The notes beneath the pieces are model-generated. The model saw only the letters and a program-made list of their open reading frames with translations, was not told the DNA's origin and searched no databases. Of a DNA stretch of 60,620 nt, positions 7,719-18,863 are shown one piece after another. Source of the stretch: Pseudomonadota bacterium (GTDB taxonomy: Bacteria > Pseudomonadota > Alphaproteobacteria > UBA828); contig JAQBTG010000021.1 in the NCBI GenBank assembly GCA_027624955.1, forward strand, positions 1 through 60,620, read 5' to 3'. Within the stretch, counting starts at the first letter, position 1, and every line of letters starts with the position of its first letter. Made by a program: the position numbers and the translations under genes.

Positions 7719-7749
7719 GGGGACGGCCCTTGGGCCGTCCCCTTTTTTT
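7719..7749 (+). terminator. Rho-independent terminator of the porin gene
   Basis: A perfect GC-rich inverted repeat, GGGGACGGCC with loop CTTG and GGCCGTCCCC at 7719-7742, is followed directly by seven T residues (7743-7749). It is the clearest intrinsic terminator in the window and isolates the porin from the sulfotransferase locus. Confidence 0.95.
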
Positions 7750-7834: not shown

Positions 7835-8665
7835 TTGCGGTGGTGTGAGGCGGATGTGACACGGCGCGCGAATAGGGCTGGAGGCGGCACCCAGGATGCA
7901 AACGCCTTATGGGTGCGCGCTTCCGAGCTGGCCCGCGCCGGGCAAATCCGCGAGGCCGAAAAACTTCTCGTCAAATTAGCGAAAATTGCGCCCAACAATG
8001 GCGATATATTAGACTTTCACGGCACCCTGAAAGTACAAGCTGGCAAGCATGCGCAGGCTGTTCCCCTGATCAAAAGGGCGCTTCGTCTCGACGATGGCAA
8101 TTCCACCACGCATGGCAGCCTGTGGTCGCGTACGAAGGTTTGTCGAAACCGGACAAAGCAAAAACCCACTATCTTCGGGCGCTCAAACTTGATCCGAACC
8201 AGGCGCGCATACATCTAAATCTGGGCGCCCTGTTGTGGCAAGAAGGCGATCGTGGCGCCGCCGTAAAACACTATGAACAAGCTCTCACCGCGCTATGTCT
8301 ATCTGGGTCAGGCGATGCTTTTTCTCGGCCGCCTCGATGAAGCGCTCAGCTGCGGCGAAGTCGCCGTGCGGCTCCATCCGTCTTCCGCCAAGGGGCATAT
8401 AAATTTGGGCCGCGCCCTGCAAGCGGGCGGCCGCATCGAAGAAGCGATATCCCGTTTCCGTCAGGCCATTACACTAAATGAGCGCCTTGCCGAAGCTTAT
8501 GAGAACTACGCCTATGCGCGTCGCGTTGCCGAGGGAGACAAGTTTGCCGACGCCTTGTCTGCCGCGCTTGGCGCGCAAGGTTGGACAGACGGCGAGCATG
8601 CCCGCTTCCGTCGCTTAGCCGGGGTCGAGCAGTTATACTCGCACCGAGTCGTTTTCTGGCGATAG
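7835..8665 (+). pseudogene. Decayed TPR gene, paralogue of the TPR-sulfotransferase
   Basis: TPR coding runs through three frame segments. From 7835 (TTG; or GTG at 7856) to about 8115 the frame encodes repeats ending 'LIKRALRLDDGNSTTHG'. From about 8120 to 8285 the next frame continues with 'KTHYLRALKLDPNQARIHLN'. From about 8290 the first frame resumes with 'YVYLGQAMLFLGRLDEA' and stops at 8665. Alignment with the intact paralogue at 9530 shows a net loss of about 20 nt near 8290. It also shows that the C-terminal sulfotransferase domain is absent. The first shift could be a sequencing error, but the deletion and truncation point to real decay. Confidence 0.82.
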
Positions 8666-8674
8666 GCACAAACA

Positions 8675-9508
8675 ATGAGCAACATCATCTGGCTTGCCTC
8701 CTACCCCAAATCGGGCAATATCTGGCTGCAAGCCTTTCTGTACAATTTGATTTCCGACGCCCATCAGACACCGAGTGCGGAAATAATTCGCAACTTTTGC
8801 ACGCCGGAGGCGGCCGCCCTGCATTTCATGAAGTTGGATTCCCGCCCCCTCAGCGCTTGGTCGCGGAATGAAACGGCTGAACGCCGAGCCGCGGCACATC
8901 AGACCATTGCCGAGCTTCGGTCCGACAATGTTTTCGCCAGCACCCAGGCGGCTTTGGCGTCGCGCGGCGGCTCTGCCACCATTACTATGGAGCATACGAC
9001 AGCGGCGATATATCTGGTCCGCAATCCGCTCGATTTGGCGCTGTCCCTGGCGGCGGCGGATGAGTGCAGCATCGATGACGCGATCCTCCGGCTCGAGACC
9101 GAATATGAATCCGAGAACAGCGATCAATTCGCCTACGAATTCCACGGCAGTTGGTCGACCCATGTCTTGAGTTGGACCCAGCAGCGCCATGCCGGGCTTC
9201 ACCTCCTGCGCTATGAAGACATGCTGTCGGTACCGGAAAAATCTTTTGGGCCCGTGGCCACATTCTTCGGTTTCGATGCTTCGCCGGCGCGGATCGACCG
9301 AGCGATACGGTATTCCACGTTTGACAATCTAGCGGTGGAACAGGAAAAATCCACTTATGCGCGTAGCACCGAAGCTTCAACAAAATTACTTCGGGTTGGC
9401 AAATCGGATCAGTGGCGGGGCGTATTGAGCGCCGATCAGGTGCGCCGCGTCGTCGAGCGCCATGCTGAGCAAATGGAGCGTTTTGGCTATATCCCGGATG
9501 CCTATTGA
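8675..9508 (+). CDS. Sulfotransferase-family protein with degenerate active site
   Basis: A 277-aa Sulfotransfer_1-type protein, close to the copy at 14592. The 5'-phosphosulfate loop reads 'YPKSGNIW' (residues 10-17) with Ile where Thr is usual. The 3'-phosphate site 'IYLVRNPLDLALS' is kept. At residues 89-91, where the paralogue has Lys-Thr-His, this protein has Ser-Thr-Gln, so the catalytic Lys and His are missing. The C-terminal PAPS-binding segment survives as 'GKSDQW'. It follows the broken TPR gene by 9 nt and precedes the TPR-sulfotransferase by 21 nt. It is intact as an ORF but is probably inactive or altered in function (inference). Confidence 0.85.
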   Translation: MSNIIWLASYPKSGNIWLQAFLYNLISDAHQTPSAEIIRNFCTPEAAALHFMKLDSRPLSAWSRNETAERRAAAHQTIAELRSDNVFASTQAALASRGGSATITMEHTTAAIYLVRNPLDLALSLAAADECSIDDAILRLETEYESENSDQFAYEFHGSWSTHVLSWTQQRHAGLHLLRYEDMLSVPEKSFGPVATFFGFDASPARIDRAIRYSTFDNLAVEQEKSTYARSTEASTKLLRVGKSDQWRGVLSADQVRRVVERHAEQMERFGYIPDAY

Positions 9509-9529
9509 CGCGCTGAGACCGGAGATCGG

Positions 9530-11773
9530 ATGAACAGAAAAGAGCGCCGAAGTCGCCAAGCACAGACCCGCGCCGCGCCGCCGGGCAGCATGGATCCCGA
9601 ATTGCAGGAGATCATGCAGCAGGCGACGGGGCTTCATCGCGACGGACGCATCGACCAGGCGATGGCGGCTTATGAGGCTGTCCTCACGCGTCAGCCGCGC
9701 CATGCCGATGCGCTCCAGTTCTTGGGCGTCGCCAAGATGCAAAGCGGCCACGCCGATGAAGCCATCGGCTTGTTAAAGCAGGCGGTCGGCAGCGATCCCA
9801 AAAACAGCCGGGCGCACTACAATCTCGGCTTGGCGTTCCGCACCAATGGCAAGGAGCAAGATGCGCTTGTGTCCTTTCGCCGCGCCATCGCGGTAGAGCC
9901 ACGAAATTTTGAGGCGCATAACGCGATTGCCGGCATTCTGCTGGTCGCGCCCGATCAGCTCGACACGGCTGAGGCGCATATCCGCCGGGCCTTGGAGAAC
10001 AATCCAAAATATCTCCCAGCACTGAACAATCGGGCGCTTCTCCTGAAGGCGTGTGGCCGGCTGGAAGACGCGGTGAGCGAGGCGCGTGCGGCGGTCGCAT
10101 TGGCGCCACGAAATGTTCCGGCGCTGGTCACGCTGGGCGCGTTATTGTTGGAAATGGGCGAAACGGAGGAAGCCGAACAAATTCTTCGCGACGCCGTGGC
10201 GCTCGCTCCCGAGGACGCTAGCGCGCATACCAATTTAGGCGCTGCGCTCATTAATAGGGGCGCACAGGAAGCGGCCGAGGCGGAATTCGAACGCGCGCTG
10301 GAACTTGACCCGGACAACAGCGAAAGCCTGAATGATCTTGCGTTGATCCGTAAAAATCAGGATCGGCAAGACGAAGCCGTAGTCCTCCTGCGCCGCGCGT
10401 TGTCGGTTAAACCCGACGACGCCGCCCTGCATGTGAATCTTGGTGCCATTCTGTGGCGGAAGGGAGCGCATAATTCCGCCATCACTCATTACGAACGAGC
10501 TATCGCATTGGACGCTAATTTTGCCGAAGCTTATGTTTATTTGAGTCAGGCAGCGCATTTCCTCGGACATATTGATGATGCGATGCGTTGCGGCGAGGCC
10601 GCCGTACGGCTCGATCCATCTTCCGCCAAAGGGCATCAGAGTTTGGGCAGCGCACTGCAGGTTTGCGGCCGTATCGAGGAGGCGATTTCCCATTTCCGCA
10701 AGGCGATCACCCTGAATGGGCGCCTTACCGGGGCTTATGTAAACTATGCTCATGCGCGTCGCGTGGCCGAGGGGGATGCGTTTTCTGACACCCTGCTTGT
10801 CGCCCTCGCCGAGCGGGATTGGAACGATAATGAGCGCGCCGACCTGCATTATGCCGCCGGTAAGGTGGAGAGCGACCGCGGCAGTCACAAAGCGGCCTTT
10901 ACCCATTGGGCGCAAGGCGCCAGCTTGCGGCGCAAGGCCATTGAATATGCCATAGCGGACAGCCGCAAGATTTTCGATAGTTACCAGGCGATCTTCGATT
11001 CGCAGCTTCTCGAACGCCGTTTGCGCAATCCCGTTGAAGGGCCGACACCTATTTTTATTGTCGGCATGCCGCGCTCCGGCACGACCTTGGCTGAGCAAAT
11101 TCTGGCCAGCCATCCACAAGTCGCCGGCTTGGGAGAACTGCCTCATCTCAGCATTATCGCGAACGCCTTTTTCGAATGGTCAAAGACCGACGGCGGACAT
11201 CCATTCGCCTTGGCCGGGTTTGATGAAACCAATTTGGCGAGCGCCGCAAAGCTCTATATTGACAAGCTCGATCGAAAAAAAAGCGAGCCCTACATCAGCG
11301 ACAAAATGCCGGGCAACTTCCAATATTTGGGCCTCATTTACTTGCTGTTTCCCAATGCCCGTATCGTTCACTGCCGCCGCAGCGCTTTGGATACTTGCCT
11401 CTCCTGCTTCATCACCAATTTCGTCCACGGCCAGGGGTGGAGTTTTGATCTAAGAGAAATTGGCGAATATTACGGTCTCTATCTCGATTTAATGGCGCAT
11501 TGGCGGCGCGTGTTACCGCTGCCTATTTACGACATCCAATATGAATCCGTTGTCGCCGATTTACCTGGACAAGCGCGCCGCCTGCTGGATTTTTGCGGAC
11601 TTGATTGGCATCCCGATTGTCTTGAATTTCACCGATCCAAGCGACCCGTGTTTACGGCCAGCAACACCCAAGTGCGCCAACCCATATATGCAAGCTCGGT
11701 GGGGCGCTGGCGGCAATACGAGGAGCAGCTCCAGCCGCTGATCAACAGTTTGCCGCCCGATTCCATTCTTTAG
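9530..11773 (+). CDS. TPR-repeat sulfotransferase fusion
   Basis: A 747-aa protein with about a dozen tetratricopeptide repeats (residues about 20-430) joined to a C-terminal Sulfotransfer_3-type domain. The PAPS 5'-loop is 'MPRSGTT' at 513-519, and the 3'-phosphate motif has Arg616, Arg617 and Ser618 in 'CRRSALDTCLSCF'. TPRs probably bind an acceptor protein or partner while the C-terminal domain transfers sulfate. No signal peptide is visible, so it is cytoplasmic. GGAG 5 nt before the ATG supports the start. The N-terminal half is nearly duplicated in the gene at 12015. Downstream cysD-cysNC would supply PAPS. The substrate (glycan or protein) is unknown. Confidence 0.9.
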   Translation: MNRKERRSRQAQTRAAPPGSMDPELQEIMQQATGLHRDGRIDQAMAAYEAVLTRQPRHADALQFLGVAKMQSGHADEAIGLLKQAVGSDPKNSRAHYNLGLAFRTNGKEQDALVSFRRAIAVEPRNFEAHNAIAGILLVAPDQLDTAEAHIRRALENNPKYLPALNNRALLLKACGRLEDAVSEARAAVALAPRNVPALVTLGALLLEMGETEEAEQILRDAVALAPEDASAHTNLGAALINRGAQEAAEAEFERALELDPDNSESLNDLALIRKNQDRQDEAVVLLRRALSVKPDDAALHVNLGAILWRKGAHNSAITHYERAIALDANFAEAYVYLSQAAHFLGHIDDAMRCGEAAVRLDPSSAKGHQSLGSALQVCGRIEEAISHFRKAITLNGRLTGAYVNYAHARRVAEGDAFSDTLLVALAERDWNDNERADLHYAAGKVESDRGSHKAAFTHWAQGASLRRKAIEYAIADSRKIFDSYQAIFDSQLLERRLRNPVEGPTPIFIVGMPRSGTTLAEQILASHPQVAGLGELPHLSIIANAFFEWSKTDGGHPFALAGFDETNLASAAKLYIDKLDRKKSEPYISDKMPGNFQYLGLIYLLFPNARIVHCRRSALDTCLSCFITNFVHGQGWSFDLREIGEYYGLYLDLMAHWRRVLPLPIYDIQYESVVADLPGQARRLLDFCGLDWHPDCLEFHRSKRPVFTASNTQVRQPIYASSVGRWRQYEEQLQPLINSLPPDSIL

Positions 11774-11856
11774 CCGGCACCGGGCTGGCAGTGAGGAAGA
11801 AGGACTAAATTAACTAGCCGCTCTGGGCGCCCCCCAAAGTTGATGGCCAAACCGGA

Positions 11857-11898
11857 AATATGATGGAGTGTTTCGGCTATATTCTGAACGCACATTGA
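11857..11898 (+). pseudogene. Remnant of a deleted sulfotransferase gene (last 13 codons)
   Basis: Read in frame from 11857, the sequence encodes 'NMMECFGYILNAH' and a stop. It matches the extreme C-terminus of the sulfotransferase at 8675 ('EQMERFGYIPDAY' and stop), and the nucleotide match continues as TGAGGCG versus TGACGCG. It lies exactly where a sulfotransferase gene would be expected between two TPR genes. The rest of that copy is gone. The downstream leader (CCGGAGATC before the old ATG) also matches the leader before 9530. Confidence 0.75.
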
Positions 11899-11986
11899 GG
11901 CGCCGGAGAATCGCTTCCCTCCGGACCGGTGCGAGGTTAAAGTCCGGCGCCCAGGCGAGACGCTGGCCGCTAAAACCGGAGATCAA

Positions 11987-12025
11987 ATGAACAAAGAAGA
12001 GTCCCGCCGCCGCGATGCCGGGTAG
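11987..12025 (+). other. Ancestral start turned into a 12-codon upstream ORF
   Basis: ATG at 11987 is preceded by GGAG with 5-nt spacing, as at the intact paralogue start (9530). It now encodes 'MNKEESRRRDAG' and stops at 12023-12025, inside the start region of the TPR-methyltransferase, which uses another frame. Compared with the paralogue's 'MNRKERRSRQAQTRAAPPGS', a short deletion has shifted the frame. Ribosomes may reinitiate at the overlapping ATG 12015 or at 12027. Confidence 0.6.
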
Positions 12026-14573
12026 CATGGATCCCGAATTGCGGGAGATGATGCAGCGCGCCACGGGGCTGCATCGTGACGGCCATATCGATCAAGCGGT
12101 GGCGGGTTATGAGGCTGTCCTCGCGCGCGAGCCGCGCCATGCCGATGCGCTCCAATTCATGGGCATCGCCAAAATGCAAAGCGGCCACGCCGATGACGCC
12201 ATCCGCTTGCTAAAGCAGGCGGTTGGCAGCGATCCCAAAAACAGCCAGGCGCACTACAATCTCGGTTTGGCGCTCCGCGCCGAGGGCAAAGAGCAAAAAG
12301 CACTCGCTTCGTTCCGCCGCGCCATCGCGGTAGAGCAGCGAAATTTCGAGGCGCATAACGCAATTGCCGGCATCCTGTTGGCCGCGCCTGATGAGATCGA
12401 AAGGGCCGAGGTGCATATCCGCCGGGCCCTTGAGCACAATCCAAAATATGTCCCGGCACTGAACAATCTGGCGCTTCTCTTGAAAGCACGTGGCCAGCCG
12501 GAAGAAGCACTAAGCGAAGCGCGTGCGGCGGTGGCGTTGGCTCCCCATTATGTTCCGGCACTGGTCACACTCGGCGCATTGTTGCTGGAATTGGGCGAAA
12601 CGGAGGAGGCTGAAAAAATTCTGCGTGACGCCGTAGCGCTCGCGCCTCATGACGCGAATGCGCATATCAATTTGGGCGCCGCGCTAAAATTCATCGGCGT
12701 GTTGGCGGCGGCGGAGGCTGAGTTCGAACGCGCGATAGAACTTGATCCTGATAATTATCAGGCGTTGAATGATCTTGCTTTGGTACGGAGCAACCAGGGG
12801 CGGCTGGATGAGGCTGAAGCCCTCTTGCAAAATGCGCTGTCGTTCAATCAGCATGACGCCACTTTGCATATGAACCTCGGGGCGCTTTTTCGCCGCCAAC
12901 AAAAATGGGGCGAATCCATCACCTGTTTTCGCCGCGCCCTAGATCTCGACGCCGGAAATGTGGACCGCGCCCAGGCCTTCGCCAACAGCTTACGCGGCGC
13001 CAATTTCCTGCAAGCCAACGCGCAATTGTGGAAGGATCTGGAGCGCTGTCTCAAGATTGAGGGAATCGACCACGAGCCTCTGGCGGCGCCGGCTGCCCGT
13101 TTGCTGCGAAACTCTCATCAGGTTGCGCCGCTGGTCCACGCGGCAGAGCGCGGCGATTTCACCTTGAGCGCGCAAGAGGTACAGAAGGGTGATGTGCTGG
13201 CGCCGTTGTGTACGGATTTTGCCAGCCTTCTCTTGCAGCGAGTGATTGTCCCGGATGCGGCTCTGGAAAAACTTTTTACGGCTATACGCAAAAATCTACT
13301 GACGCTCGCGGTTGCGGGCCGTTTGCCCGAACAGATAACGCAGCAAACACTACATTTTCTTTGCACGCTGGCTCGGCAATGTTTTCTCAATGAGTATGTC
13401 TATCTCCTGAGTGGCGAGGAAAAGGCCAACGCAGCGGTCCTGCAACAGCAAATCGACGACCGCCTGCGTCAACCCGATGAACGCCCGCCGCGTGCCGCCG
13501 TCGCGGTTCTTGCCTGCTACCGTTCGTTGGATGGGTTGGTGTCGAGTGGAAATTTGGCGGGCCATGAATGGGCTGCGCGCGACGATGCCTACGGCCACTT
13601 GATTACGCAACAAATCCGCCACGCCGCCGCCGAACGGAAACTGGCGGCGAACCTGCCCGAGCTTGGCGACAGCGATGATGAAACTTCCAGCAAGGTGCGT
13701 CGTCAGTACGAAGAAAGCCCTTATCCACGCTGGACCAGCCGGGCCCGGCTCAAATCGATGCCGGTGCGTGCGCTGCTCGGTGATCTCTTTCCGCACGCGA
13801 ATCTCGCCGGCTTGAATATCTCGGCTGAGCCCGATCTGTTGGTTGCGGGCTGCGGCACCGGGGCGCATGCCATCGCCGCAGCTTTGCACTACCGAAATTC
13901 ACGCGTGCTGGCGATGGATCTCAGCCTGGCCAGCCTGGCCTATGGCAATCGCCAAGCCGAGGCGTTGGGCATTGATCGCATCGAGTGGGCACGTGGCGAT
14001 ATTCTCGCTTTGGCCGGATTTGAGCGCCGTTTCGACATGGTTGATTGCGGCGGCGTGTTGCATCACATGCGCGAACCGATGACGGGGTGGCGCATTCTGC
14101 GCAACTTGCTGAAACCCGGGGGCGTTATGAAAATAGGCCTCTACAGCGAACTGGCGCGTGCTGATTTCGTTCAACTGGGCGCAGATTTGGTGACGGATGA
14201 AGATCCGGCGGATCGCATCCGATCCTATCGCCAGGAGATCATCGCTTTGCCCGACGATGCGCCGTTGAAACGGGTATTGGCGCTGCACGATTTTTATACC
14301 CTTTCGGAATGCCGCGATCTTCTTTTTCATGTCGAGGAGCATCGTTTTACCCTGCCTGAGATCGCCCGCTGCTTGGACGCGTTGGACCTTGAATTTATCG
14401 GCTTTGAGATGCGCGAGCGTGCGGTCATCGATCGTTACCGGGCTCGTTTTCCCAATGACCCCGGCGCCCTAAATCTCGAAAATTGGCATCTCTTCGAGAC
14501 CGACAATCCCCATACATTCGTGGCGATGTATCAATTCTGGGTCAAGCCGCGCGACGTGCCGGCTGCCGGCTGA
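12015..14573 (+). CDS. TPR-repeat SAM-dependent methyltransferase
   Basis: An 852-aa protein. Residues about 5-330 are TPRs very similar to those of the protein at 9530. A helical linker without recognised domain follows (about 330-560). Then comes a class I methyltransferase domain with 'YEESPYPRW' (565-573), SAM-binding 'AGCGTG' (611-616), 'MDLSLASLAYG' and 'DMVDCGGVLHHM'. The YxxxPYPRW lead-in is typical of TPR methyltransferases in alphaproteobacteria. The start is unusual: the ancestral ATG with Shine-Dalgarno at 11987 is out of frame, so 12015 or 12027 must be used. It likely arose when the C-terminal sulfotransferase domain of a TPR duplicate was replaced by a methyltransferase. The acceptor is unknown. 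Confidence 0.87.
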   Translation: MPGSMDPELREMMQRATGLHRDGHIDQAVAGYEAVLAREPRHADALQFMGIAKMQSGHADDAIRLLKQAVGSDPKNSQAHYNLGLALRAEGKEQKALASFRRAIAVEQRNFEAHNAIAGILLAAPDEIERAEVHIRRALEHNPKYVPALNNLALLLKARGQPEEALSEARAAVALAPHYVPALVTLGALLLELGETEEAEKILRDAVALAPHDANAHINLGAALKFIGVLAAAEAEFERAIELDPDNYQALNDLALVRSNQGRLDEAEALLQNALSFNQHDATLHMNLGALFRRQQKWGESITCFRRALDLDAGNVDRAQAFANSLRGANFLQANAQLWKDLERCLKIEGIDHEPLAAPAARLLRNSHQVAPLVHAAERGDFTLSAQEVQKGDVLAPLCTDFASLLLQRVIVPDAALEKLFTAIRKNLLTLAVAGRLPEQITQQTLHFLCTLARQCFLNEYVYLLSGEEKANAAVLQQQIDDRLRQPDERPPRAAVAVLACYRSLDGLVSSGNLAGHEWAARDDAYGHLITQQIRHAAAERKLAANLPELGDSDDETSSKVRRQYEESPYPRWTSRARLKSMPVRALLGDLFPHANLAGLNISAEPDLLVAGCGTGAHAIAAALHYRNSRVLAMDLSLASLAYGNRQAEALGIDRIEWARGDILALAGFERRFDMVDCGGVLHHMREPMTGWRILRNLLKPGGVMKIGLYSELARADFVQLGADLVTDEDPADRIRSYRQEIIALPDDAPLKRVLALHDFYTLSECRDLLFHVEEHRFTLPEIARCLDALDLEFIGFEMRERAVIDRYRARFPNDPGALNLENWHLFETDNPHTFVAMYQFWVKPRDVPAAG

Positions 14574-14591
14574 ACAGGCACGGGTTGTTGC

Positions 14592-15428
14592 ATGGGTAAT
14601 ATCGTTTGGCTCGCTTCTTATCCGAAATCCGGCAACACCTGGCTGCGCGCGTTCTTGCTCAACCTGATCACCAATTCCGAACAGCCTGTGGATATTAACA
14701 AGATGGCGGCGCTGACACACGGCGACAGCCAGGCGAACTGGTATGCCGAGTTTGATGCCCGCCCGCCGCCGGCGTTAAGCGTTGAGGATTTAGCGCGCCT
14801 TCGGCCCAAAGTGCATGCGCGCATCGCCGCAAGCTCTGTCAATTCGGTTTTCGTGAAAACTCACAATGCCCTGGTCGAGGTCGCCGGCACCGCCATGATT
14901 AGCCAGTCTGAGACCGCCGGTGTGATATATGTGGTGCGCAATCCTCTCGATATTACGCTCTCTTACGCCGACCATTTAGGCATGCAGGTGGACGATATTC
15001 TCGATCTCATGGCGAGGCGCGGATTCGAAACGCCAGTCAGTGCAAGCCATGTACCCGAACATCACAGTGATTGGTCGAGCCATGTCAAAAGCTGGACTCA
15101 AATCGCACATCCCGCGCTTCATGTCGTGCGTTACGAAGATATGGCGTCCCGGCCGGCCGTCACCTTTGCCGCCATTGCGCGTTTCCTTGGCTTGAATCCG
15201 GCGCGTGAGGCTTTGCTGCGAGCAGTGCGTTTTTCATCCTTCAAAGTGCTGCGTACTCAGGAGAAGAAAAGCGGCTTTGTCGAACGCACGCCGGTGCAAA
15301 AGTCTTTCTTCCGTTCAGGAAAGTCGGGAAACTGGCGCACTCAGCTAACGCCAGCACAAATTCGCCGTTTGCTCGGCAATCACCGCGAGCAGATGGAACG
15401 GTTTGACTATGTGCCGAAGGGATACTAA
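14592..15428 (+). CDS. Sulfotransferase (intact catalytic motifs)
   Basis: A 278-aa Sulfotransfer_1-family enzyme transferring sulfate from PAPS to an unknown hydroxyl or amino acceptor. The 5'-phosphosulfate loop is the canonical 'YPKSGNTW' (10-17). The catalytic segment is 'VFVKTHN' with Lys89 and His91. The 3'-phosphate site is 'IYVVRNPLDITLSY', and the C-terminal 'FRSGKSGNW' corresponds to the RKGxxGxW motif. It follows the TPR-methyltransferase by 18 nt and precedes cysD by 46 nt, so enzyme and donor synthesis are adjacent. No signal peptide is seen. It is the active counterpart of the degenerate copy at 8675. Confidence 0.92.
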   Translation: MGNIVWLASYPKSGNTWLRAFLLNLITNSEQPVDINKMAALTHGDSQANWYAEFDARPPPALSVEDLARLRPKVHARIAASSVNSVFVKTHNALVEVAGTAMISQSETAGVIYVVRNPLDITLSYADHLGMQVDDILDLMARRGFETPVSASHVPEHHSDWSSHVKSWTQIAHPALHVVRYEDMASRPAVTFAAIARFLGLNPAREALLRAVRFSSFKVLRTQEKKSGFVERTPVQKSFFRSGKSGNWRTQLTPAQIRRLLGNHREQMERFDYVPKGY

Positions 15429-15474
15429 AAGACGGCAAGAAATTGGGTAATTTAGTAAATACCGAAATTATTTT

Positions 15475-16281
15475 GTGAATATGATGCTGGACCATTTGGA
15501 AGCCCTTGAAAATCAAAGCATTTATATCATCCGCGAGGCCTATAACAGGCTCGAACGGTTGGGTATGTTGTGGTCGCTCGGCAAGGATTCCAACGTGATG
15601 TTGTGGCTCTGCCGCAAGGCGTTCTTCGGCCATGTGCCGTTTCCGGTGGTGCATGTCGACACCGCCAAGAAATTTGCCGAAATGTATGCGTTTCGTGAGC
15701 ATTACGCCAAGGAATGGGGCCTCAATTTGATCGTCGGTGATTGCCCGCCGATCGAAGACATGGACGCCACCTTGCCGCCGGCGGCGCGCGCCGCGGCGCG
15801 CAAGACCGCGGGCCTTAAATCCTTGTTGGCAAGCGAAGGCTTTACCGGTGTGTTTGCCGGCATCCGCCGCGATGAAGAAAGCACGCGTGCCAAGGAGCGG
15901 GTGTTTAGTCCGCGCGGCGAAGCGGGGCAATGGCATTTCAAGGATCAGCCGCCAGAATTCTGGGATCAGTTCAAGACGGATTTTCCGCCGGGCACACATA
16001 TCCGCATCCATCCGCTGCTGCATTGGTCTGAAATAGATGTGTGGCTCTATACCAAGCGGGAAAACATCCCGACCGTGCCGCTCTATTTCGCGCGCGACGG
16101 CAAACGCTACCGCTCGCTCGGCGACGAAGACATCACCTCCCCGATCGATAGCGAGGCAACGACGATCGATGAAATCATCGCTGAGCTACGGGTTACGACG
16201 GCGGCCGAGCGCGCCGGGCGGGCGATGGACCATGAAGCGGAAGATTCCTTCGAGCGCTTGCGCGCTGACGGTTACATGTAG
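15475..16281 (+). CDS. cysD: Sulfate adenylyltransferase subunit 2
   Basis: CysD makes adenosine 5'-phosphosulfate (APS) from ATP and sulfate with the GTPase CysN. The PP-loop reads 'SLGKDS' (residues 34-39), and the family segment 'GIRRDEESTRAKERVFSPR' is present. The 268-aa length is slightly below the usual ~300. The start is GTG at 15475, giving 'MNMMLDHLEALENQSIYII'; in-frame ATGs follow at 15481 and 15484. The next gene, a CysN-CysC fusion, begins 6 nt after the stop. The position directly behind sulfotransferases suggests PAPS supply for sulfation, although a role in assimilation cannot be excluded. Confidence 0.94.
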   Translation: MNMMLDHLEALENQSIYIIREAYNRLERLGMLWSLGKDSNVMLWLCRKAFFGHVPFPVVHVDTAKKFAEMYAFREHYAKEWGLNLIVGDCPPIEDMDATLPPAARAAARKTAGLKSLLASEGFTGVFAGIRRDEESTRAKERVFSPRGEAGQWHFKDQPPEFWDQFKTDFPPGTHIRIHPLLHWSEIDVWLYTKRENIPTVPLYFARDGKRYRSLGDEDITSPIDSEATTIDEIIAELRVTTAAERAGRAMDHEAEDSFERLRADGYM

Positions 16282-16287
16282 CCCGCC

Positions 16288-18270
16288 ATGGCCAAACCAC
16301 CCCGCAAATTCGTTGTTTTCACTGACGGCACACACACCGACGGCACACAAGTGGCCGGTGCACAGGTGGCAGGCGCACAAGCGCCCGGTGCGCGCCGCCT
16401 CGATATCGCTATCGTCGGCCATGTCGATCACGGCAAATCCACTCTGGTCGGCCGCCTGCTGCACGATACGGGCACGCTTCCTGATGGCAAGGTCGAATCA
16501 ATTCGCAAGATGTGCGAACGCCGCGGCATGGCTTTCGAGTGGGCCTTTGTCATGGACGCCTTCCAAGCCGAGCGCGATCAGGCAATCACCATCGACGCGG
16601 CGCATATTTGGTTCAGCACGAAGATGCGCGATTATGTGATCGTCGACGCGCCGGGTCACCGCGAGTTCGTCAAGAACATGGTCAGCGGCGCTGCGTCTTG
16701 TTCGGCGGCGCTGCTGGTGATCGATGCTGCAGAAGGGGTGCGCGAGCAATCCCGCCGCCATGCGTATTTTCTTCATCTGCTCGGTCTCAGCCGCATCGTT
16801 GTCGCGGTCAACAAGATGGACGCGGTCAATTTTGATGCCGCGCGGTTCACCGTCGTCGAGGCAGATATTCGTGATTATTTGGCTGGGCTTGGTATATCGC
16901 CAAGCCATGTTGTTCCGGTGTCGGCGCGCGATGGCGACAATATCGACAAACGGTCTGACCGCAGCCCTTGGTATGATGGGCCAACTGTTACCGAAGCGCT
17001 CGATGCGATCGAGTTGCCGGAAGCTGATTCCGAAGCGCCGCTCCGCATGCCGGTACAAGATATTTATCATTTCGATGACCGCCGCATCATTGCCGGGCGA
17101 ATTGAATCGGGCGCGTTGGAAGTCGGCGATGAGCTGTTGTTCTCGCCGTCCAACAAAAAGGCGCATGTGCTGCGTATCGAAAGCTGGCCGGAGACGGACG
17201 CGCGCACCAGCGCCGAGGCGGGGCAATCGGTCGGCCTCATTCTCGATGATCAGATATTCATCGAGCGCGGTGAAGTGATCAGTCATGTCTCTCGGCCGCC
17301 GCTCGAATCGAACGTCTTTCGCGGCCATGTATTCTGGCTCGGCAAAGAGCCGCTTGCCGCCGGAAAGCGCTACAAGCTCAAGCTCGGCACACATGAGGCG
17401 CCGGTGGAAGTGCAATCCATCGACCGCGTCATCGATATCGACGATCTCGCGATGACTGAAGTTGCTGCGAGCGATGCGGTGATCGAACGCAACGGCGTCG
17501 GCGAAGTGGTGTTGCGCGGCCGCGCCATGTTAGCGCTGGATGAGTTCGCGGAAAACCGCCGCACGGGCCGGTTCGTTATCGTCGACGGTTACGACATCGC
17601 CGGCGGCGGCATTATCTCGATGCGCGGCTACCCGGATCAACGCCAGCTCATCACCGGCAAGTCGAGCAACCTGTTTGCTGTCGATGCCGGTATTTCCCTG
17701 GATTTGCGGCGCCAACGTAACGGCCATAAAGGCGGTGTGGTGTGGTTTACCGGGCTTTCCGGTTCGGGCAAAACCACAATCGCGCTCGAGGCGGAACGTC
17801 AGCTTTTCCAAAAAGGCTATCAGGTCTATGTGCTCGACGGCGACAATGTGCGCGGTGGGCTGAACGCAAACTTAAGTTTTTCGCCGGAAGACCGGGCGGA
17901 GAATATTCGCCGTGTCGGTGAAGTGGCGGCGCTGTTCGCTGATGCCGGTTTCGTCGTGCTCACAGCGTTCATTTCGCCGTACCGTTCGGATCGCGTGCGT
18001 GCCCGCGCGGCGGTCGAGCGTTACCCCAGCGGGGCGTTTCACGAAGTCTATGTTAAGGCGCCGCTAGCGCTCTGCGAAGAGCGCGACCCAAAGGGCCTGT
18101 ATCGCAAGGCGCGGGCCGGCGATATCCTCGAATTCACCGGCATCTCCGCACCCTATGAGGCGCCCGAGACGCAAGACCTAATCGTCGACACCGACGCGCA
18201 ATCGGTGGAACAAAGTGTTACCGCTTTGGTTTCCTATATTGATGGTGAATTCGCGATCGAAACTTCCTAA
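16288..18270 (+). CDS. cysNC: Bifunctional sulfate adenylyltransferase subunit 1 / APS kinase
   Basis: A 660-aa fusion that drives APS synthesis (CysN GTPase) and phosphorylates APS to PAPS (CysC). CysN part: P-loop 'GHVDHGKST' (44-52), 'DAPGH' (120-124), 'NKMD' (175-178), then EF-Tu-like barrels. CysC part from about 475: P-loop 'GLSGSGKT' (489-496), '[10 protein letters not shown]' and '[10 protein letters not shown]'. The P-loop is of EF-Tu type (HVDHGKS) rather than the SVDDGKS of enteric CysN, so it belongs to a divergent subfamily. Residues 13-34 are a short low-complexity repeat (TDGT, QVAGA). The 3' end overlaps convergent ThiE-like by 4 bp. Confidence 0.95.
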
Positions 18271-18863
18271 TCCGCGAAAGCAGCGATGGCGGCAATGCCC
18301 GCAGCGCGCCCGTTCAACAGCCGAGCCGCATTATTCGGGTTGATCCCGCCAAGGGCGTAGACCGGTAGCCTCGACCTTGCGGCCAATAAATTGAATCCTT
18401 CTAACCCGAGCGGCCGCTCTTCCGGATGGCTCGCAGTTGCGAAGACCGGTGACAGAAGCGCGGCATCGGCGCCGCACATTGCAGCCTGATGTAGCGCCTG
18501 TCTTGAGTGCGCCGCCACCGTGATCAGCCAGTGACGGCGGTGGCGCCAGCGCCGCGCTTCGCCGGCCCGCGCTTCGGGCAAATGAATTCCCGCGGCCCCG
18601 ACGCGCATTGCCAACACTGCGTCACCGGCGATAAGCAGTTTGAGGCCGCGCCGCCGCGCTACCTCGGCAAGCTGGCGGGCTAGCGCTTCGCGCGCCACCA
18701 GGTCGTAATCGCGCAGCAGCACGGCGCTGCCGCGCGGCAGCCGCTCCGCCGCACCGGCCGGATCGGGCAGGCGTTGGGCGTCGGTGATCAATAAGAGCGG
18801 CGGCAGGCCGCAGCCTGCGGCGTTCTCTGAATTGAGCCGTTTCGCCAGCTCTGTTAGCTTCAT
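18267..18863 (-). CDS. Thiamine phosphate synthase/TenI-like protein
   Basis: A 198-aa TIM-barrel protein of the ThiE/TenI family. Family landmarks are '[13 protein letters not shown]', 'AAGIHLPEA', '[17 protein letters not shown]' and '[15 protein letters not shown]'. Several ThiE substrate-binding residues differ. The QLREK segment reads 'VLLRDYD', the ND motif reads 'GD', and HLGQxD reads 'HLPEA'. The protein is therefore better described as ThiE/TenI-like than as a proven synthase. It is alone on the minus strand, overlaps the end of cysNC and is divergent from yggS. No thiamine riboswitch was seen before the start. Confidence 0.75.

Follow-up and report, generated by a model that had tools for sequence, protein, structure and literature searches.

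In the 60,620-nt window analyzed here (the whole stretch of alphaproteobacterial DNA under study), a gene cluster for PAPS-dependent sulfation has very probably been reshaped by one unequal (homeologous) crossing-over, which would have acted on a gene order like that of a sister species and yielded a fusion gene and decayed copies. The evolutionary event is of a known kind, the Lepore-type rearrangement, in which unequal crossing-over gives a tandem duplication with a fusion gene. As in that case, two partly similar neighboring genes would have recombined to leave a duplicated block and a fusion gene; however, the stretches involved here are TPR modules belonging to two enzymes that differ in catalytic domain, and the fusion therefore exchanges a probable partner- or substrate-binding half. 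The rearrangement would therefore be a clean example of repeat-module enzymes exchanging probable partner-binding halves between different catalytic domains.

Layout of the locus and of its relatives

Gene order and domain content (Table 1) are as the initial annotation of this DNA had listed them. The TPR gene that it called broken is indeed so: in the alignment, the pseudogene at 7856-8605 carries a 1-nt deletion near position 8121 and a 20-nt deletion near position 8292 and is then truncated, the whole sulfotransferase domain (~930 bp) being missing. The intact TPR-sulfotransferase gene spans 9530-11773 and keeps an open frame across 747 codons. The conserved 5' end of the TPR-methyltransferase, with its ATG at ~11987 and encoding MNRKERRS... 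in relatives, is not in frame with the rest of the gene; this leader, gone from the methyltransferase gene (11987-12015), is still present in the TPR-sulfotransferase at 9530.

Table 1. Features of the sulfation locus in the 60,620-nt window
Feature	Position	Strand	Evidence and remarks
Porin, PF13609 (Porin_4), 406 aa	6474..7694	+	Pfam, 8.3e-34; first gene of the conserved neighborhood; 5' of the sulfotransferase in most relatives
Strong intrinsic terminator, then seven T	7719..7742	+	Directly 3' of the porin; similar hairpin at the same position in G002 and G003
TPR-sulfotransferase pseudogene, N-terminal TPR part of the original gene	7856..8605	+	blastn to the TPR-sulfotransferase of G002 and G003; alignment
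Sulfotransferase A, PF00685, conserved pseudo-sulfotransferase	8675..9508	+	Catalytic His replaced (STQ); PAPS-loop Thr replaced (SGNIW)
Chimeric TPR-sulfotransferase, N-half, from TPR-methyltransferase including its leader (from ~9518)	9530..10430	+	blastn; 40-residue windows; tree, 97/97
Recombination breakpoint, in register within one TPR motif (HVNLGAILW)	10430..10490	+	Sequence comparison
Chimeric TPR-sulfotransferase, C-half, TPR and TPST-like sulfotransferase domain (PF13469)	10490..11773	+	Orthologous to the TPR-sulfotransferase of G002 and G003
Remnant (last ~15 codons) of a second copy of sulfotransferase A	11840..11900	+	Similar decayed remnant at the same position in G003
TPR-methyltransferase, TPR and class I SAM methyltransferase	12015..14573	+	Starts at an internal ATG
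Sulfotransferase B, PF00685	14592..15428	+	Catalytic motifs all intact; kept in relatives
cysD, ATP sulfurylase small subunit	15475..16281	+	Sole CysD found in the genome
cysNC, ATP sulfurylase large subunit/APS kinase (makes PAPS)	16288..18270	+	Domain matches

The loci of relatives were found by a search of 60 genomes with sulfotransferase B and were then retrieved; the genome of the window is designated G000, and the genome closest to it comes from a marine metagenome. In the sister species G002, of the same genus (locus L111), the order is porin, TPR-sulfotransferase (566 aa), sulfotransferase A, TPR-methyltransferase, sulfotransferase B, cysD, and cysNC. G003 (L109) has a reduced form of this order that lacks sulfotransferase A. 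In another genus, G007 carries porin, TPR-sulfotransferase, an ortholog of sulfotransferase A with intact motifs, sulfotransferase B, cysD, and cysNC, its locus being split across two contigs that overlap at their ends (330 of 342 bases identical). G006 has porin, the sulfotransferase A ortholog, sulfotransferase B, cysD, and, at a contig end, the first part of cysNC; G009 and G012 have porin, sulfotransferase B, cysD, and cysNC. The constant frame is porin, sulfotransferase B, and cysDNC, with the inner genes gained or lost between genera.

The TPR-sulfotransferase and the TPR-methyltransferase are separate genes in both G002 and G003, and their TPR regions share only ~28% identity; the methyltransferase of the window aligns end to end with its orthologs in these two genomes. 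Relatives of the TPR-methyltransferase are widespread and were seen in Prochlorococcus, SAR11, Azospirillum, and Betaproteobacteria (L030-L108). No PF00685 sulfotransferase of the porin-linked family was found near any of these relatives, except on G003's own contig, and they are therefore of no help with regard to function.

Repeat pairs and a chimeric gene

The initial annotation saw three copies of one unit and proposed a self-comparison as a check; by blastn, the window contains instead two different main repeat pairs. One joins 9558-10446 to 11994-12883 (80.5% nt identity over 894 nt, E = 0) and the other joins 8294-8585 to 10532-10823 (75% nt identity). The leader and N-terminal half that had been described as common to the TPR genes are shared by the two intact ones, over the first of these pairs, but not by the broken gene, which instead aligns with the 3' portion of the TPR stretch in 9530-11773 and, at 70 to 76% nt identity, with the N-half of the TPR-sulfotransferase of G002 and G003.

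Comparison of the window with G002 and G003 by blastn assigned 7850-8605 to the N-half of the TPR-sulfotransferase, 9518-10443 to the N-half of the TPR-methyltransferase, and 10454/10487-11760 to the C-half of the TPR-sulfotransferase; 11863-18397 is collinear with G003. Residues 1 to ~300 of the chimera, together with its 5' leader, derive from the TPR-methyltransferase and the rest from the TPR-sulfotransferase. In 40-residue windows, the chimera shares 26 to 35 identities with the TPR-methyltransferase of its own genome and then mostly 25 to 37 with the TPR-sulfotransferase, the changeover falling at residues ~285 to 325, inside one TPR motif and in register. Because the microhomology at the breakpoint consists only of short shared runs (4 to 9 nt), the position of the crossover cannot be narrowed to a single base.

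In the tree of the N-halves, the chimera and the TPR-methyltransferase of the same genome formed a group (97/97) that excluded G003 and G002. These two N-halves lie at a synonymous distance of 0.66, whereas the methyltransferase genes of G000 and G003 are 0.90 apart, which indicates that the event is younger than the split from G003, but not recent. The C-half of the chimera is closer to G003 (dS 0.67) than to G002 (dS 1.20), which fits vertical descent. The short remnant at 11840-11900 had already been matched to the end of sulfotransferase A; it is the end of a second copy of that gene, at the place predicted by one crossing-over. The in-register fusion gene is flanked by parental gene ends in the order that unequal crossing-over predicts.

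Proposed history and alternative explanations

The ancestral order would have been that listed above for G002, from the porin to cysNC. In the lineage of this genome, after its split from G003, the TPR stretch of the TPR-methyltransferase on one chromosome copy would have crossed over with the TPR stretch of the TPR-sulfotransferase on the other. The block made up of the C-half of the TPR-sulfotransferase, sulfotransferase A, and the N-half of the TPR-methyltransferase would thereby have been duplicated once, giving the order TPR-sulfotransferase, sulfotransferase A, fusion gene (TPR-methyltransferase N-half plus TPR-sulfotransferase C-half), sulfotransferase A copy, TPR-methyltransferase, and sulfotransferase B. 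Later, the redundant first TPR-sulfotransferase would have lost its catalytic domain and its frame, the second sulfotransferase A would have shrunk to the remnant, and the TPR-methyltransferase would have lost its conserved first start. The end state would be the gene set of G002, except that the TPR-sulfotransferase bears the N-terminal TPR half of the methyltransferase. A single unequal crossing-over between TPR stretches predicts every piece.

Some observations run against this explanation. One event predicts a closer pair than the broken copy and the chimera, which are 72.7% identical in their 321-nt overlap (the tree of this overlap region is unresolved, at 62/59); faster evolution of the pseudogene, or a second, older event, would explain this low identity. 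The C-half DNA tree weakly groups the chimera with G002 (83/84) rather than with G003. Since G003 has no sulfotransferase A and retains a similar remnant, some of the loss may be older than the duplication or may have taken place twice; the decayed end in G003 may reflect shared or parallel loss. Furthermore, the genome is an 84-contig draft, and in a draft with repetitive genes mis-joined TPR repeats might produce such a structure; however, the repeat copies differ by ~20% in nucleotide sequence, too much for mis-joining, and the chimeric frame is open throughout, so that we consider an assembly artifact extremely unlikely. Gene conversion, in which TPR-methyltransferase sequence overwrote the N-half of the TPR-sulfotransferase without a tandem duplication, and the broken TPR gene and the remnant had separate origins, is unlikely. 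Recombination within TPR stretches would suffice for a chimera, and conversion is in keeping with the excess divergence of the overlap region; however, it leaves unexplained the methyltransferase leader directly 3' of sulfotransferase A, the second TPR-sulfotransferase N-half adjoining the porin, and the second sulfotransferase A end 5' of the methyltransferase, and would require three independent events.

The reading put forward in the initial annotation, that a cassette of TPR gene and sulfotransferase was triplicated, after which a methyltransferase replaced the catalytic domain of one copy and one of the sulfotransferases decayed, draws on the alternating order of TPR and sulfotransferase genes and on the strongly similar N-halves of the two intact TPR genes. 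We regard it as very unlikely, and it is contradicted by synteny with G002 and G003 and by the trees. The swap from sulfotransferase to methyltransferase is not supported, since the two genes already stand apart in both relatives with dissimilar TPR regions and the methyltransferase is colinear with its orthologs there and has relatives in many other bacteria. The similarity of the TPR genes within the window is strong because the sulfotransferase gene received the N-half of the methyltransferase gene. In addition, the broken gene lacks the shared N-half, and sulfotransferases A and B are old, separate clades. What survives of that proposal is local duplication followed by loss, here attributed to unequal crossing-over.

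Sulfotransferases A and B

In a tree of 82 family members, sulfotransferase A grouped with its orthologs from G002, G007, and G006, and sulfotransferase B grouped with the family B genes, each group falling to a single side of a branch (99* for both in the table of groups); the A set, where it is drawn in the complete 82-member tree, has a support of 88. The two proteins of the window are 40% identical in amino acid sequence. Both clades contain other genera of the family, and sulfotransferase B is therefore not a copy from the same event; the separate clades place the split of A and B before the genus arose.

The initial annotation was correct in that active-site residues of sulfotransferase A are missing (KTH has become STQ), but the decay is not ongoing: the catalytic His and the PAPS-loop Thr are lost in both G000 and G002, so that the loss is older than the duplication, and are kept in G007 and G006. 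The catalytic His expected of an active PF00685 enzyme, kept in 78 of the 82 family rows, is replaced by Gln in the window and by Arg in the G002 ortholog. Between G000 and G002, sulfotransferase A is 66% identical in amino acid sequence with an omega of ~0.15 and sulfotransferase B is 67% identical with an omega of 0.19, both frames being intact, although dS is near saturation and the omega values are rough. The omega of A resembles that of B and that of the methyltransferase. Sulfotransferase A is best read as a kept pseudoenzyme under ordinary purifying selection. Ongoing decay was ruled out by the loss in common with G002 and by this omega, approximate as it is. The catalytically dead protein may act as a partner or regulator of sulfotransferase B. 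G250 shows the same combination of one intact copy with degenerate tandem copies. An AlphaFold2 model of sulfotransferase A, built from three sequences, had a mean pLDDT of 49 and was not used.

Sulfotransferase B matches the PF00685 profile over its full length (102 bits, 4.6e-29, residues 5 to 271). K12, H91, R116, and S124 are all present; in this family these positions are the PAPS-loop Lys, the catalytic His, and the Arg and Ser of the 3'-phosphate site. Its closest solved structures are Teg12, Teg14, StaL, and SULTs (SULT1 enzymes), which are PAPS-dependent sulfotransferases. Like the cytosolic sulfotransferases of PF00685, it has the PAPS loop, KTH, and RNPxDxxxS motifs; unlike them, it belongs to a porin-linked alphaproteobacterial clade, and sulfotransferase A is without the catalytic His. 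Sulfotransferase A, sulfotransferase B, and the porin had no match in PHROGs and no named family in NCBIfam.

The porin-sulfotransferase pair across Alphaproteobacteria

The wider interest lies in the porin-linked sulfotransferase pair. Members of this sulfotransferase family were found in 92 of the 386 Alphaproteobacteria searched, and 40 loci were fetched (L123-L162). In 28 of these loci a porin lies 5' on the same strand at a distance of no more than 2 kb, and in 24 it lies within 500 bp; of the 12 loci without a porin so placed, 4 have a contig end within ~1 kb upstream. With one to six Porin_4-type matches per genome (24 genomes searched), chance adjacency would be ~0.1%, an order-of-magnitude estimate from the porin counts. 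A strong intrinsic terminator occurs in 28 of 32 porin-sulfotransferase spacers, where 0.35 is expected in shuffles. Several spacers are only 50 to 81 nt long, too short for a promoter of their own, and the sulfotransferase is there probably expressed by read-through from the porin. Read-through of this kind would couple the enzyme to the porin at a low ratio, as would suit an enzyme whose target is the porin or something produced in parallel with it.

Tandem arrays of the family were also seen, most of them behind a porin (L145 from G340, L148, L153, L141, L123, and L147). L145 has ~8 sulfotransferase copies, its upstream side being cut by a contig end, and in such arrays catalytic residues are lost in some copies.

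A literature search for porin sulfation, TPR-sulfotransferases, and porin-sulfotransferase gene pairs, with most subscription journals outside its scope, returned nothing relevant. The core of porin followed by sulfotransferase recurs class-wide, with no function on record found in that search, and points to an unrecognized surface modification in many bacteria.

Possible function of the cluster

The likeliest role of the cluster would be PAPS-dependent sulfation of the porin or of another envelope component; the sulfate acceptor is probably at the cell surface. That the porin itself is the acceptor we consider rather doubtful; an intrinsic terminator lies between it and the rest of the cluster. 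An extended form of this idea is tentative and, taken as a whole, unlikely: porin, terminator, and sulfotransferase would form a read-through pair across Alphaproteobacteria whose enzyme sulfates the porin before export, joined in this family by its own PAPS supply, a TPR enzyme resembling tyrosine sulfotransferases, and a dead paralog regulating the active one.

It is quite possible, though short of probable, that the sulfate goes onto a lipid, LPS, or capsule precursor, as with NodH and LpsS, and that the porin is merely a neighbor. The likeness of sulfotransferase B to small-molecule and glycopeptide sulfotransferases (the structures named above) favors such an acceptor, as does the porin's having its own terminator; against it stand the porin linkage in 28 of 40 loci from many families, the several spacers too short for a separate promoter, and the absence of glycosyltransferase and LPS genes from the annotated nearest neighbors (ParB, LeuS, and thiamine monophosphate synthase). 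Since porins commonly serve as phage receptors and nutrient gates, sulfate on or near them, if real, would bear on phage attachment and uptake and could be tested by mass spectrometry in cultured strains.

TPR-borne sulfotransferase domain and sulfate activation

Against the PDB, the TPR-sulfotransferase matches protein-tyrosine sulfotransferases across the length of its catalytic domain (6.7e-9), and one of its Glu residues aligns within the Glu-Glu pair of TPST. In sequence it is similar to TPST1 and TPST2 (PF13469), but it is bacterial and joined to a long TPR array.

In the nodH-nodPQ genes of Sinorhizobium and the raxST-raxP-raxQ genes of Xanthomonas, a sulfotransferase is served by its own ATP sulfurylase and APS kinase genes. 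The same arrangement is found here, with cysD and cysNC beside the sulfotransferase genes; unlike in those systems, a porin leads the cluster and two extra TPR-borne enzymes are present. No gene for a Nod factor or a RaxX peptide was seen in the cluster. RaxST is the subject of PMC4216712 and PMC6637879.

CysD and CysNC would supply cytoplasmic PAPS to sulfotransferase B and the chimera. A second CysD was not found in the 84-contig draft; elsewhere the genome has CysH, a sulfite-reductase-like gene, and a second Sat domain fused to a pyruvate-kinase-like domain. As CysH is present, cysDNC may serve assimilation too. The unusual fusion lies at a contig end (L163:774-2855; G000:C65), where one open frame, next to a KdsB-like gene, holds the pyruvate-kinase-like domain (59-380) and the sulfate adenylyltransferase domain (396-690), the latter truncated by the end of the contig.
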